Part shown: positions 48,213 through 52,678 of the stretch, in pieces
Position numbering within the stretch: position 1 is the stretch's first letter
Layout of the letters: every line of letters begins with the position of its first letter
Source of the DNA: Hyunsoonleella aquatilis
GTDB lineage: Bacteria; Bacteroidota; Bacteroidia; Flavobacteriales; Flavobacteriaceae
Assembly: GCF_014270105.1 (NCBI RefSeq)
Contig: NZ_JACNMF010000002.1
Coordinates: 124,001 to 188,000, forward strand
Length of the DNA: 64,000 bases
Direction: 5' to 3'
The notes under the pieces: model-generated
What the model saw: the letters and a program-made list of their open reading frames with translations, nothing else
Databases searched by the model: none
What the model was told of the DNA's origin: nothing
Made by a program: the position numbers and the translations under genes

Positions 48213-49295
48213 CTATCCGTTAATAATCTTCTCCTGATGGTTTATGGATTCTTGGTGAATCGCTTTAAACATCTTCAAAATAAAATCCTCGCTCAAGCCA
48301 TGCTCCTCGCCTTCCAACACCATGCGTCCTAAAATTTCATTCCAACGCTTGCTTTGCAATACAGCAACATTCTTTTGCTTTTTTAGTGCGCCAATACCGT
48401 CTGACGCCTTCATGCGTGTGCCCAACAATTCAATAATCTGATTATCCACCACATCAATCTGAGCCCTCAATTTATCCAACGCGGTATTATATTCAGACTC
48501 CGCATCGGTTTCCTTTCTAATTTTTAAATCTTTCATAATCTGAACCAAAGTTGCAGGGGTTACTTGCTGTGCCGCGTCACTCCAAGCATTGTCAGGATCA
48601 GTGTGTGTTTCAATCATCAACCCGTCAAAATTCAAATCCAACGCCGTTTGTGATACGTCAAAAATCATATCTCGCTTACCGGTGATATGAGATGGGTCAT
48701 TTATAATCGGTAAATCTGGAAATCTACGTTGTAGTTCAATGGCCAATTGCCATTTCGGTTTGTTTCTATATTTGGTCTTTTCATAAGTGGAAAACCCTCT
48801 ATGGATCACACCTAGCTTTTTGATATCGGAAGCATACAAACGCTCAATAGCCCCAAGCCACAAAGGTAAATCTGGGTTAACTGGGTTTTTCACCAAAACT
48901 ATTTTGTCAGTACCTTTTAAGGCATCTGCAATTTCCTGAACAATAAACGGACTCACCGTTGAGCGAGCACCAATCCACAACAAATCAATGTCGTGCTCTA
49001 GGGCCAACTTCACATGCGCCGCATTGGCTACTTCTGTTGCAGTTTTCATACCTGTTTCCGCCTTAACCTTCTGTAGCCATTTTAAACCCAAGTGCCCAAC
49101 GCCCTCAAAATTCCCAGGGCGGGTTCTAGGCTTCCAAATTCCAGCACGGTAATAATTAACGTCCGTGTCCTTCAGCTCATGTGCAATTTTTAAAACCTGC
49201 TCCTCGGTTTCTGCGCTACAAGGCCCGGCAATTACCAACGGATGCTCCAATCCTAAGTCATCCAGCCAAGCTCTCATTTCCTTTTTGTTTTCCAT
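48213..49295 (-). CDS. Bifunctional DAHP synthase / chorismate mutase
   Basis: A 360-residue fusion. Residues 1-255 form a KDO8P-synthase-like (class I-beta type) 3-deoxy-7-phosphoheptulonate synthase (VIAGPCSAET, YYRAGIWKPRTRPGNFEG, NDPSHITGKR, METHTDPDNAWSDA given as MIETHTDPD). Residues 270-355 form a type II chorismate mutase helix bundle (LRAQIDVVDNQIIELLGTRM). It covers the first step of the shikimate pathway and the conversion of chorismate to prephenate. Last gene of the aromatic operon; a 108-bp repeat lies in the 213-bp gap before it. Confidence 0.95.
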   Translation of the reverse strand: MENKKEMRAWLDDLGLEHPLVIAGPCSAETEEQVLKIAHELKDTDVNYYRAGIWKPRTRPGNFEGVGHLGLKWLQKVKAETGMKTATEVANAAHVKLALEHDIDLLWIGARSTVSPFIVQEIADALKGTDKIVLVKNPVNPDLPLWLGAIERLYASDIKKLGVIHRGFSTYEKTKYRNKPKWQLAIELQRRFPDLPIINDPSHITGKRDMIFDVSQTALDLNFDGLMIETHTDPDNAWSDAAQQVTPATLVQIMKDLKIRKETDAESEYNTALDKLRAQIDVVDNQIIELLGTRMKASDGIGALKKQKNVAVLQSKRWNEILGRMVLEGEEHGLSEDFILKMFKAIHQESINHQEKIING

Positions 49296-49367
49296 TTTTA
49301 CTTAATATTTAGCTACTTCAGCTATTGCGTTTACTATTTATTTATGTTGTTTTATTCTTCTTTTTTT

Positions 49368-49475
49368 GGGCGTTACCCACTCCCGATAGCTATCGGGAGG
49401 GTCGGGCTTTCCGTTCCAAGTCCTCGCTCCCTCTTTCAGGAGGCGCTGTGGGCTTTCCTCTACAATCCCTAACGC
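49368..49475. repeat. GCGTTA-type modular repeat, long form
   Basis: GGGCGTTACCC, then TCCCGATAGCTATCGGGA, a GGTCGGGCTTTCC module and CAATCCCTAACGC. It lies between tyrA and the DAHP synthase gene; spurious reading frames cross it. Confidence 0.8.
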
Positions 49476-49508
49476 AGATCAACCAGCCAACTTCCTGCTT
49501 CCTGCTCC

Positions 49509-50360
49509 CTATATTATTCCGTTCAAAATATCCTTAATATGATTGGTGTTTTTCATTTCGTCATAAATCGCCCCAAAATCATCATTTTTCATCAGCTCCT
49601 TAAAGTGCGTCAAATTGTTGATATATTCCTCTAAAGTTTCAATCACATTGGTTTTATTCTGCTCAAAAATCGGTGTCCACATTTCTGGCGAACTTTTTGC
49701 CAAACGCACCGTGGAAGCAAATCCACTGCCTGCCATATCAAAAATATCCCGTTCATTTTTCTCTTTGTCAATCACTGTTTTTCCCAACATAAACGAACTG
49801 ATGTGTGATAAGTGAGACATGTAGGCAATGTGCCTATCATGCTCCACTGGGTTCATATACCGCATCCGCATCCCGATATCCGTAAACAATTTAAGTGCAG
49901 GTTCCTGCAGTTTAAAAGCCGTTTTCTCAACCTCACAAACAATATTGGTTTTACCCTTAAATAATCCTGCTACGGCGGCAGTCGGACCTGAATGCTCGGT
50001 TCCCGCGATTGGGTGCATAGCCAAGAAATTCCTTCGTTTCGGGTGGGTTTCAACCACCTTGCAAATATCCGCTTTGGTTGACCCCGCATCTACGACCAAT
50101 CCAGCATCGGGAATCTTATCCAAAATAGTCGGCAACAATTTCACCGTAGCATCCACGGGAATTGATATAATCACCAAATCGGCATTCTCAATATCATCTA
50201 AGGTCGCCTTTTGGTCAATCAGCCCTAATTCCAAAGCAGTCGTTAAGGTAGCATCCTTTCTACTCACACCATGTATCACTGCGTCAGGGCGATGGGTCTT
50301 GATATCCAAAGCAAGACTACCACCTATTAAACCTACTCCTATGGCATATATATTCTTCAT
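49509..50360 (-). CDS. tyrA: Prephenate dehydrogenase
   Basis: A 283-residue NAD(P)-dependent enzyme converting prephenate to 4-hydroxyphenylpyruvate for tyrosine. N-terminal Rossmann motif IGVGLIGGSLALD, then DAGSTKADIC, MHPIAGTEHSGP and the helical dimerisation domain (YMSHLSHISSFML). No ACT domain or fused chorismate mutase: the mutase is on the DAHP synthase. Third gene of the operon, 174 bp after the aminotransferase; that gap carries two short repeats and nothing else clear. Confidence 0.95.
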   Translation of the reverse strand: MKNIYAIGVGLIGGSLALDIKTHRPDAVIHGVSRKDATLTTALELGLIDQKATLDDIENADLVIISIPVDATVKLLPTILDKIPDAGLVVDAGSTKADICKVVETHPKRRNFLAMHPIAGTEHSGPTAAVAGLFKGKTNIVCEVEKTAFKLQEPALKLFTDIGMRMRYMNPVEHDRHIAYMSHLSHISSFMLGKTVIDKEKNERDIFDMAGSGFASTVRLAKSSPEMWTPIFEQNKTNVIETLEEYINNLTHFKELMKNDDFGAIYDEMKNTNHIKDILNGII

Positions 50361-50366
50361 AAAACA

Positions 50367-50400
50367 GCCCCTCCTAACCTCCCCAAAGGGAAGGAACTCA
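50367..50400. repeat. CCCCTCCTAACCTCCCC-type repeat
   Basis: CCCCTCCTAACCTCCCCAAAGGG, 7 bp upstream of the tyrA start. The same element in the other orientation closes metH2 at 60651-60680. Confidence 0.6.
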
Positions 50401-50503
50401 ACTCAGACGGATTTTTATTCTTTAAAATTCATTATCAATTCAACCTAAACTACTTCTATCTTCATTCTTCATGCTACGTGCTTCAAACTTCTATCTAGAC
50501 TAA

Positions 50504-50535
50504 AACTGCCTACTGCCTACTGAACACTGCCAACT
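50504..50535. repeat. Short CTGCCTACTG/CTGCCAACT repeats
   Basis: Three related 7- to 10-base units directly after the aminotransferase stop codon. Reverse-complement relatives of the repeats at 5950-5973. Confidence 0.45.
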
Positions 50536-51680
50536 TATTTCACTCGTGCCAAAGCTTCTTCTAAAATCTCCGTTGAAGCACACAGCGAAAACCTAATGTA
50601 CCCTTCGCCCTGGCTACCAAAAATGGTTCCCGGGGTAATAAACACATGATTGTTCTTCAACACTAAATCTATAAACTCTTCAGACTTTAAATATGGCGGC
50701 AACTTTGCCCACACAAACATACCAGTGGCATTTTTATCATATGTGCAGTTTAAAGCCTCGGCCATTTGCCATACCAATTCGCGTCGTCTTTTGTAAACAC
50801 TATTCAAAGTCACAAACCACATTTCCGAACATTTTAAAGCTTCAATAGCGCCTTTTTGAATGCCGTAAAACATTCCAGAATCCATATTGCTTTTTACCTT
50901 TAAAATATTGCTGATATGCTCACTATTTCCCAAAACCATACCCACGCGCCATCCGGCCATATTAAAGGTTTTGCTAAGTGAATTCAATTCCAAACACACA
51001 TCCTTGGCACCTTCAACTCTTAAAATACTTTTTGGATTCTCATTCAGCACAAAACTATAAGGATTGTCATTGACAATCAAAATATTATGGCGCTTGCCAA
51101 AAGCTACCAATTCTTCAAAAACGGTTTCAGTCGGTGTTGCCCCTGTTGGCATATGTGGATAATTTACCCACATTAATTTCACCCTACTTAAATCCTTTTG
51201 CTCTAAATCCGCGATGTTGGGCATCCAATTATTGGAGGCATCCAAATCATAGGTTACAATTTTAGCACCCACCAATTTCGTAACCGATTGATACGTGGGG
51301 TATCCCGGGTTTGGAATCAGCACCTCATCGCCTTCATTGAGATAAGCCATCGAAATATGCATAATACCTTCCTTACTTCCCATTAAAGGCAAAATCTCAT
51401 TGGCTGCATTCACTTTAACCCCAAAATGCTCTTTATAAAAGGCCACCATTGCCTCGCGCAATTCGGGCAACCCCTGGTAACTTTGGTATTTATGAGCCGT
51501 GGCATCGCCTAAACTACCCGAAATAGCATCTATCACTTTCTGCGGTGGTTGCAAATCCGGACTACCAATGCCCAAGTTAATGATAGGCTTTCCGCTCGCA
51601 ATCAACAAGCCCACCTCTCTCAATTTTCTAGAGAAGTAGTATTCTTCAACCGTATGTAATCGCTTCGCTACTTCAATCAT
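50535..51680 (-). CDS. PLP-dependent aromatic (prephenate or phenylpyruvate) aminotransferase
   Basis: A 381-residue fold type I aminotransferase, class I/II. PLP lysine in SLSKTFNMAGWRVG; other signatures are GIGSPDLQPP, PNPGYPTYQS, WVNYPHMPTGA and NDNPYSF. Sequence resembles the LL-diaminopimelate/aspartate type group. Its place between pheA (4-bp overlap) and tyrA strongly suggests it aminates phenylpyruvate, hydroxyphenylpyruvate or prephenate. The exact substrate is inferred from context. Confidence 0.9.
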   Translation of the reverse strand: MIEVAKRLHTVEEYYFSRKLREVGLLIASGKPIINLGIGSPDLQPPQKVIDAISGSLGDATAHKYQSYQGLPELREAMVAFYKEHFGVKVNAANEILPLMGSKEGIMHISMAYLNEGDEVLIPNPGYPTYQSVTKLVGAKIVTYDLDASNNWMPNIADLEQKDLSRVKLMWVNYPHMPTGATPTETVFEELVAFGKRHNILIVNDNPYSFVLNENPKSILRVEGAKDVCLELNSLSKTFNMAGWRVGMVLGNSEHISNILKVKSNMDSGMFYGIQKGAIEALKCSEMWFVTLNSVYKRRRELVWQMAEALNCTYDKNATGMFVWAKLPPYLKSEEFIDLVLKNNHVFITPGTIFGSQGEGYIRFSLCASTEILEEALARVK

Positions 51681-52504
51681 AACTTGGCATTTTTATATTC
51701 CCCGAGCAACTTAAAACTCGGGCTCATAATTTCAATTAAAGACTTCGCCTTTAAAAAATCTGCATAAGCGTCAAACGTCACATCCACAAAAAAGGCATAT
51801 TTCCAAGGTGTTTCAATAATGGGCAAGGACTGAATCTTTGTTAAATTCAACTTACAATCACTCATCACATTCAATATCGTTGCCAAACTCCCGCGCTTAT
51901 GGTCCGCCTCAAATTTAATCGAAGCCTTATTAATTTCGTTTTCAGGTACTTCGGAATTCGTCCGTTTTACCACCGCAAAACGCGTTTCATTATGTTTTAT
52001 CGTTTGGATGCTATGCGCCAAAACATCTAGTTCAAAAATTTCGGCCGCCAGCACGCTGGCAATCGCGCCAATATGTTTCAACTTATGTTTTTGAATACGA
52101 TCTGCAACCTCCGCCGTGTCCTTATCCTCTACTAATTTAATATGCGGATGTCCCCTAAAAAATCTTTTACACTGCAATAACGCCATCGGGTGCGAATACA
52201 CCTCTTTTATATCTTCAATTCTTTGACCCGGCAGTGCCATTAAATTGTGCTGAATATCCAAATAATGCTCCCCAACGATATGCAAATAATTGTTATCAAT
52301 CATCGCATAATTAGGAATAATCGAGCCCGCAATAGAATTTTCCAAAGCCATAATGGCCGCATCGCACTCACCGTTAATAAGTGCTTCCACAACCCTGTCA
52401 AAAGTCATACACTCAATAATATCCACAGGTTTTTCAAAAAATTCCCGAGATACGATGTGGTGAAAACTCCCTTTAACTCCCTGTATGGCTACCGTATTAA
52501 TCAT
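51677..52504 (-). CDS. pheA: Prephenate dehydratase
   Basis: A 275-residue enzyme converting prephenate to phenylpyruvate. Catalytic domain at about 1-180 (VAIQGVKGSFHH, ALENSIAGSI, HPMALLQCKRF, HNETRFAVV), then an ACT regulatory domain at about 190-270 (HKRGSLATILNVM, LNLTKIQSLPI). The frame stays open to 52537, but that extension is the terminator hairpin. I take the ATG at 52504, directly at the end of the hairpin's U-run, where MINTVAIQG begins the conserved domain. First structural gene of the aromatic operon, behind a Phe/Tyr leader peptide attenuator. Confidence 0.95.
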   Translation of the reverse strand: MINTVAIQGVKGSFHHIVSREFFEKPVDIIECMTFDRVVEALINGECDAAIMALENSIAGSIIPNYAMIDNNYLHIVGEHYLDIQHNLMALPGQRIEDIKEVYSHPMALLQCKRFFRGHPHIKLVEDKDTAEVADRIQKHKLKHIGAIASVLAAEIFELDVLAHSIQTIKHNETRFAVVKRTNSEVPENEINKASIKFEADHKRGSLATILNVMSDCKLNLTKIQSLPIIETPWKYAFFVDVTFDAYADFLKAKSLIEIMSPSFKLLGEYKNAKL

Positions 52505-52532
52505 AAAAAAAGTCTCGATTTTCATCGAGACT
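52505..52532 (-). terminator. Attenuator terminator of the aromatic operon
   Basis: On the minus strand AGTCTCGAT, loop GAAA, ATCGAGACT (perfect 9-bp stem), then six T residues that run into the pheA ATG. The left arm can instead pair with ATCGAGAC inside the leader ORF (52577-52570), forming an antiterminator. Confidence 0.88.
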
Positions 52533-52556
52533 TGCATTAAAATATATTGTTACTAT

Positions 52557-52637
52557 TTATACACACAACGTCTCGATTTCTTTCCCAAAAAAGAAATAAA
52601 AAAAGCTAAAGTATGTATAAAATGTTGTCGTTCTCAT
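52557..52637 (-). CDS. Phe/Tyr-rich leader peptide of the pheA operon
   Basis: A 26-codon ORF (ATG 52637 to TAA 52557), too short for routine gene calling. Residues 6-17 are F-Y-T-Y-F-S-F-F-Y-F-F-F, so 7 Phe and 3 Tyr in 12 positions. Codons 21-23 (ATC GAG ACG) contain the sequence that can pair with the left arm of the terminator hairpin 36 nt downstream. A stalled ribosome on the Phe/Tyr codons would leave that segment free (read-through); a ribosome at the stop codon would mask it (termination). The -33/-7 promoter ends 11 bp before the ATG, so the mRNA has almost no leader. Confidence 0.85.
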   Translation of the reverse strand: MRTTTFYTYFSFFYFFFGKEIETLCV

Positions 52638-52648
52638 AATTACGTCGG

Positions 52649-52678
52649 CTAAAGTAATTAATATTTCAAGAAATCAAA
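52649..52678 (-). promoter_or_regulatory. Promoter of the leader peptide-pheA operon
   Basis: On the minus strand TTTG (52678-52675), an 18-bp spacer and TACTTTAG (52656-52649), one mismatch to TAnnTTTG. Placed 11 bp before the leader ATG. Confidence 0.55.

Follow-up and report, generated by a model that had tools for sequence, protein, structure and literature searches.

In proteobacteria, the leader peptides of pheA sense phenylalanine, and pheA is the target of the Phe_leader family in enterobacteria. Among Bacteroidota elements, the Bacteroid-trp family (RF01692), which in the window's genome has a Trp-Trp-Trp leader and a terminator, is listed in the available text of PMC2864571. Leader-peptide-like small ORFs appear in Bacteroides thetaiotaomicron in the part of PMC7366714 available to us, while the corresponding part of PMC6429828, which covers five genomes, reports candidate uORFs with notable Phe and Tyr before shikimate genes. 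These uORFs encode Phe and Tyr ahead of aromatic-pathway genes, as does the leader described here; the string 'Flavobacter' was not found in that text. The available text of PMC9723704, a 2021 transcriptome of Flavobacterium psychrophilum, gives strong clues to attenuation by leader peptides upstream of amino-acid operons, and mentions 5' elements of pheA and hisG in other Flavobacteriaceae genera that have no Rfam match. The pheA element concerns the same gene and the same family as the present locus, is structured and transcribed, and likewise lacks an Rfam match; neither a leader sequence nor its segments or residues are set out in that text, nor any occurrence outside Flavobacteriaceae. 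A 2010 comparative attenuation study (Lopatovskaya and others), cited in the consulted part of PMC4833913, may bear on priority. An earlier reading of the present DNA from its letters and open reading frames (the sequence-only reading) was aware of no characterised case in Flavobacteriia. The sources available to us held no experiment to the contrary, but PMC9723704 had already given the clues above, and a Bacteroid-trp element scores above its cut-off in 12/12 genomes of the genus.

The locus studied here lies in a window of 64,000 nucleotides from Hyunsoonleella aquatilis (contig NZ_JACNMF010000002.1, positions 124,001 to 188,000), and all features discussed, spanning window positions 48213-52678, are on the minus strand. 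The operon begins with pheA, encoding prephenate dehydratase (51677..52504; Pfam PF00800, E 1.3e-56), followed by a class I/II aminotransferase gene (50535..51680; PF00155, E 1.4e-59). Next come tyrA, encoding prephenate dehydrogenase (49509..50360; NF006307, above its cut-off, E 3.6e-112), and aroGQ, encoding a DAHP synthase fused to chorismate mutase (48213..49295; PF00793 and PF01817). These domain matches bear out the gene identities proposed from sequence. The order pheA-aminotransferase-tyrA-aroGQ is found at 72/72 loci of the named set with long flanks, and in 58 of 72 family regions. Long intergenic stretches precede tyrA (50361-50534) and aroGQ (49296-49508), one of which carries a degenerate 21-nt repeat.

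Upstream of pheA, a predicted promoter (52649..52678) consists of TTTG at 52678-52675, an 18-nt spacer and TACTTTAG at 52656-52649, which we take to be one base off the Bacteroidota TAnnTTTG box. The predicted transcription start would thus lie a few bases 5' of the leader ATG. A sigma-70 scan, whose model is unsuited to Bacteroidota, does not list this promoter. The leader ORF (52557..52637) has 26 codons, MRTTTFYTYFSFFYFFFGKEIETLCV, with an aromatic run at codons 6-17 that contains three Tyr and seven Phe, the last Phe being codon 17. The promoter-like site, the ORF and its Phe and Tyr content had been described in the sequence-only reading exactly to the base.

Four segments can be distinguished in the leader. 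Segment 1 (52611..52620, TTATACATAC) covers codons Tyr-Thr-Tyr and has a possible partner at 52566-52557, within the span of segment 2, with which it would form helix 1:2. Segment 2 (52557..52577) comprises ATCGAGAC at 52577-52570, a bulged G at 52569 and TTGTGT at 52568-52563. Segment 3 (52524..52537) is the left arm common to the antiterminator (2:3) and the terminator (3:4), and segment 4 with its U-run (52505..52519, ATCGAGACT) completes an intrinsic terminator, which a terminator scan of the window also supports at 52505..52519. The terminator hairpin has arms at 52532-52524 and 52519-52511 that form nine perfect pairs around a GAAA loop; seven T follow, the last at 52505, and the pheA ATG begins at 52504. 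ATCGAGAC occurs a second time at 52519-52512, so that GTCTCGAT (52531-52524) is able to pair with either copy. The upstream pairing extends beyond the bulged G by TTG:CAA and then by another three pairs, of which two are G-U. This pattern of a copy plus its complement occurs once in the window, and in 0/100 shuffles. Antiterminator 2:3 and terminator 3:4 are mutually exclusive, as in classical ribosome-mediated attenuators. The nine-pair hairpin, the duplicated copy and the antiterminator extension given in the sequence-only reading all hold, the last with the three added pairs; that reading had missed the possible helix between 52620-52611 and 52566-52557.

Conservation was assessed by scanning for an ORF with at least six F/Y/W in 12 codons, no more than 420 nt from pheA. 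The family sample holds one locus per genus from 100 Flavobacteriaceae genera with usable sequence, and the named set shares some of its members with the genus and family sets. Loci with less than 150 nt upstream and duplicate upstream regions were dropped before counting, and eight weak order-level matches were left out. A leader ORF precedes pheA at 12/12 genus loci, 77/79 named loci, 96/100 family loci, 17/28 order-sample loci and 15/24 class-sample loci; it is accompanied by a terminator at 12, 76, 95, 14 and 13 loci, respectively. The comparison upstream of pheA that was suggested with the sequence-only reading thus finds both the ORF and its Phe/Tyr richness kept across the family. The order sample of 28 includes eight genomes of Flavobacteriaceae; nine of the other 20 have a leader ORF, six of these with a terminator. 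The ORF in one 0.6-Mb genome (L148), which is without a terminator, is probably due to chance. Among control regions upstream of other long ORFs in relatives, 0/463 contain at least six F/Y/W in 12 codons. No leader was found at the 28 loci read among 75 genomes from other classes of the phylum, nor at one locus of the same order (L279). pheA is retained in seven genomes, each about 0.6 Mb in size (family f16, L143-L149), in which no attenuator with a terminator was seen.

The four family misses comprise two loci at which the leader lies 457 nt (L181) and 646 nt (L111) upstream of pheA, one with only 373 nt of upstream sequence (L209) and one without a leader (L197). At L181 and L111, an insertion may part the attenuator from the operon.

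The reading frame, promoter and spacing of the leader are also conserved. Frame 0 is the most aromatic frame in 96/96 family leaders and 32/32 wider leaders. A Bacteroidota-type promoter box is found no more than 60 nt from the leader ATG at 110 of 140 loci, against a mean of 3.7 after shuffling, with a median distance of 17 nt, so the transcript should begin close to the leader. Segment 2 begins 9-14 nt past the last aromatic codon in 88/95 family loci. Leader length ranges from 18 to 29 aa in the family, and both residue order and the C-terminus vary across genera. This variation bears on whether the peptide itself could act as the sensor, arresting in the exit tunnel in response to a free aromatic compound in the manner of TnaC. 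The end of the peptide is alike among close relatives, as such arrest might require, but across genera aromatic richness alone is kept while order, length and C-terminus vary, and Trp codons take over in the leaders of some genomes that have no pheA. We therefore regard nascent-peptide arrest as extremely improbable.

The distance between hairpin and gene is similarly variable. The hairpin adjoins the pheA ATG in the window and lies no more than 12 nt from pheA in 32/95 family loci, an arrangement that would also suit translational attenuation, in which the leader governs a hairpin that hides the pheA start rather than the end of transcription. Across the family, however, this distance ranges from 2 to 124 nt and is at least 30 nt in 34/95 loci, yet the hairpin and its U-run are kept, which makes control of the pheA start very improbable. 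An alternative, longer pheA ORF from 52537 would cross the hairpin; given the same range of terminator-to-gene distances among family relatives, a pheA start at 52537 is unlikely.

All three helices are well paired among 102 close relatives. Helix 1:2 is paired in 95.0% of cells (slid controls 11-68%), helix 2:3 in 95.0% and helix 3:4 in 99.7%, with far lower slid controls for both. A UA-to-CG double change in helix 1:2 is present in four sequences, and this helix has five double-change cells against 1.8 when shuffled, a count equalled by 10/500 shuffles. Helices 2:3 and 3:4 have one and no double-change cells, respectively, neither above the shuffled level, because these relatives are too alike. 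An arm-swap control over diverse genera, in which the terminator arms vary (79 distinct cores), was therefore used instead. A locus's own segment 3 fits its segment 2 better than a swapped one in 109 of 115 scored loci (of 122; p 2.5e-20), with mean scores of 16.0 and 12.3, respectively. Restricting the comparison to the family and to arms differing at two or more positions gives 69 of 89 scored loci (of 95; p 7.5e-10). Complementarity reaches p<=0.05 at the level of the single locus in just 68/95 family and 40/76 named loci. Compensating base pairs, a test suggested with the sequence-only reading, thus show as few double changes among the close relatives, and across diverse genera the arm-swap control supports the pairing of segments 2 and 3.

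Folding models suggest how a ribosome on the leader might set the choice between these helices. When the window's transcript extends as far as the end of segment 3, the modelled antiterminator probability is 1.00 for A-site codons 3-17, 0.26 at codon 18 and 0.00 from codon 19. Varying the footprint from +9 to +17 nt shifts the modelled switch from codons 19/20 to 16/17, i.e. one or two codons. At 60 of the 95 family loci (73 scorable), the modelled switch falls at the last aromatic codon or the next. Stalling that frees segment 2 and release that covers it are seen in the folding models of the window, whereas the models across the family are mixed: segment 3 remains paired with some upstream stretch when the ribosome has reached the stop codon, at p>=0.2 in 62/95 and at p>=0.5 in 21. 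Without a ribosome, RNA ending at segment 3 favours 2:3 (0.99, vs 0.01 for 1:2), so pre-emption by helix 1:2 would need that helix to form kinetically, before 2:3. When the complete leader is folded to equilibrium, the terminator prevails wherever the ribosome is placed (>=0.96), from which it follows that antitermination must be kinetic. Textbook attenuators likewise work kinetically.

A covariance model built from 29 leaders was run over 120 whole genomes and yielded 94 matches at E<=0.01. Of these, 83 lie upstream of pheA, in 83 genomes, at least 62 of which contributed no row to the model; the sole match in the window's genome is the pheA leader. Only one of the 11 matches away from pheA is below E 0.002 (G059:C240), and it is a pheA locus split in assembly, as the contig end and the start of the pheA contig agree at 127/127 bases. 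The ten others are weak (E 0.002-0.01), among them the match in G044 discussed below.

No Rfam family matches the window, or any of 20 diverse pheA-leader loci, at the gathering score. The best Rfam match of the region, Phe_leader (RF01859), scores 26.2 bits (E 0.016) and so falls short of its cut-off of 55 bits. Like the pheA leader described here, Phe_leader is a Phe leader-peptide family; the present leader differs in also encoding Tyr, and in relatives Trp, and in preceding an operon that includes an aminotransferase gene, tyrA and a DAHP synthase gene. Bacteroid-trp is present in the window's genome at a separate locus (G000:C1:738441-738568, L248; leader MKKTINNAWWWCSRN), and neither the pheA leader nor the Trp leaders before aroGQ described below match it. 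Before hisG in the same genome (L265, G000:C15:555414-555956) we observed a leader that contains His, MNITQTHHHFYICSQAK, with a GC-rich hairpin and a T-run behind it, and leaders with at least three His precede hisG in the 11 other sampled genomes. A search for an Ile/Leu/Val leader around ilvB in 12 genomes gave a single passing ORF, which lies inside the gene's own stretch (L275) and was rejected.

The mean family leader is 23.7 residues long and includes 5.3 Phe, 3.5 Tyr and 0.72 Trp. Within the run, Phe outnumbers every other residue (485 of 1152 codons in 96 leaders), and the pheA leaders of proteobacteria sense Phe; both would suit sensing of Phe alone, with Tyr and Trp codons incidental. 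This is nonetheless improbable for the family, as Tyr is present in 96/96 leaders and Trp in 68, and Trp makes up 69 of the 1152 run codons (6%) against 0.74% of residues in the window's long ORFs. Further, Tyr codons are fewer where tyrA was not seen within 3.5 kb (2.46, n=13) than where it was (3.36, n=56; p 4e-4), a difference that is confounded by one clade, which supplies most of it, and so is a hint only. Trp is found in 0/12 leaders in the genus and 42/77 in the named set, and is rarer outside the family (6/17 order-sample and 4/15 class-sample leaders). The sequence-only reading had proposed sensing of Phe and Tyr, which suits the genus but is too narrow for the family; given its Trp content, the sensor is better called aromatic.

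Eighteen family genomes gave no pheA match in a single protein search. Four were set aside: G068 and G090, which have no aroGQ; G127, with 12 nt upstream; and G073, in which tyrA lies just upstream and the contig end is near. In the 14 with testable aroGQ upstream regions, a Trp-Trp leader is present in six and a single-Trp leader in one, each followed by a terminator; these leaders were chosen by eye from the two best ORFs per locus. Small Trp-Trp ORFs precede 5 of 970 control genes. No clear leader was found before aroGQ in the other seven testable genomes, one of which (G066) has a 15-residue ORF with five aromatics. Six of the seven Trp leaders lie between a divergent ABC-transporter gene and aroGQ-rsgA, the same neighbours as those of the window operon, and pheA, the aminotransferase gene and tyrA are missing from between the ABC gene and rsgA at these six loci. 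In the seventh (G044, leader MTNNNTWWSNSKFYLKR), the ABC gene is farther away and rsgA was not seen; here the weak genome-wide covariance-model match falls directly before aroGQ. Genera with just pheA-aroGQ at the same place have leaders such as MNTFFTYFNFWFFYFGGKYRVVM.

The Trp leaders could instead be unrelated later arrivals, for example copies of a trp-operon leader. In keeping with this, G044 alone among the seven clearly matches the covariance model (E 1e-4), which leaves position as the argument for common descent of the others; four of them score E 0.24-0.72 and two are not listed, and such weak matches prove nothing because non-leader stretches reach E 0.0018 (L366). We consider later arrival unlikely, as six of the seven share one location, flanked by the divergent ABC gene and aroGQ-rsgA, and no match to Bacteroid-trp or any other leader family was obtained at E<=0.5; the single Rfam match among them is to an antitoxin RNA family, far below its cut-off. 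In folding models of the Trp leaders, the switch follows the last Trp codon by 0, 2, 4 and 7 codons in L372, L374, L375 and L383, respectively, and has no clear position in L368, L369 and L371. On a tree of aroGQ, three changes of Trp label fall on well-supported branches. The simplest account of this one-gene tree, in which long branches are unsure, would be two gains and one reversal, with G044 far from the other six; the reversal is invoked because a Phe/Tyr leader (G074) nests among those six.

We propose that the leader is an exchangeable aromatic sensor, in which the codons probably track operon content: Phe/Tyr, with or without Trp, before the full operon, fewer Tyr where tyrA was not seen, and Trp where pheA is gone. 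Without pheA, the operon's DAHP synthase could feed only Trp among the aromatic amino acids. On this view, Flavobacteriaceae would have switched to Trp two or more times, one of them in situ with the ABC-transporter and rsgA neighbours unchanged, and present-day genomes would preserve a stepwise series. No description of helix 1:2, of the Trp content or of the Trp leaders before aroGQ was found in the available text of the open-licence literature searched. With respect to those sources, a family-wide attenuator is partly foreseen in print; what the present analysis adds is its detailed anatomy and the Trp leaders of genomes without pheA.

From comparison of relatives and the folding models, the locus is very probably a ribosome-mediated transcription attenuator of an aromatic amino-acid operon, of the classical type. 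The translated-leader attenuation put forward in the sequence-only reading gains support from the conserved ORF, frame, promoter, exclusive pairings and spacing across the family. We infer its transcription, translation, stalling and starvation response as follows. RNA polymerase would initiate slightly ahead of the leader ATG, by a few bases, and ribosome loading would follow at once. With sufficient charged tRNA-Phe and tRNA-Tyr, the ribosome would reach the end of the leader and cover segment 2, allowing the 3:4 terminator to form. Were either tRNA uncharged, it would stall within codons 6-17 and leave segment 2 free; helix 2:3 would then form before segment 4 is made, and pheA-aminotransferase-tyrA-aroGQ would be transcribed. 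In the least certain part of the scheme, helix 1:2 may pre-empt 2:3 in the absence of translation, provided that it forms before segment 3 has been transcribed. The leader codons would follow the products of the operon, with Phe/Tyr and sometimes Trp before a full operon and Trp in some genomes without pheA.

The Trp leaders of genomes without pheA amount to a natural experiment that ties leader codons to the products of the operon. Use of Shine-Dalgarno sites is rare among Bacteroidota, and to our knowledge transcription-translation coupling is not established for this phylum. An attenuator that is present across the family and predicted to switch at a sharply defined codon would make the closeness of ribosome and polymerase in Bacteroidota testable.
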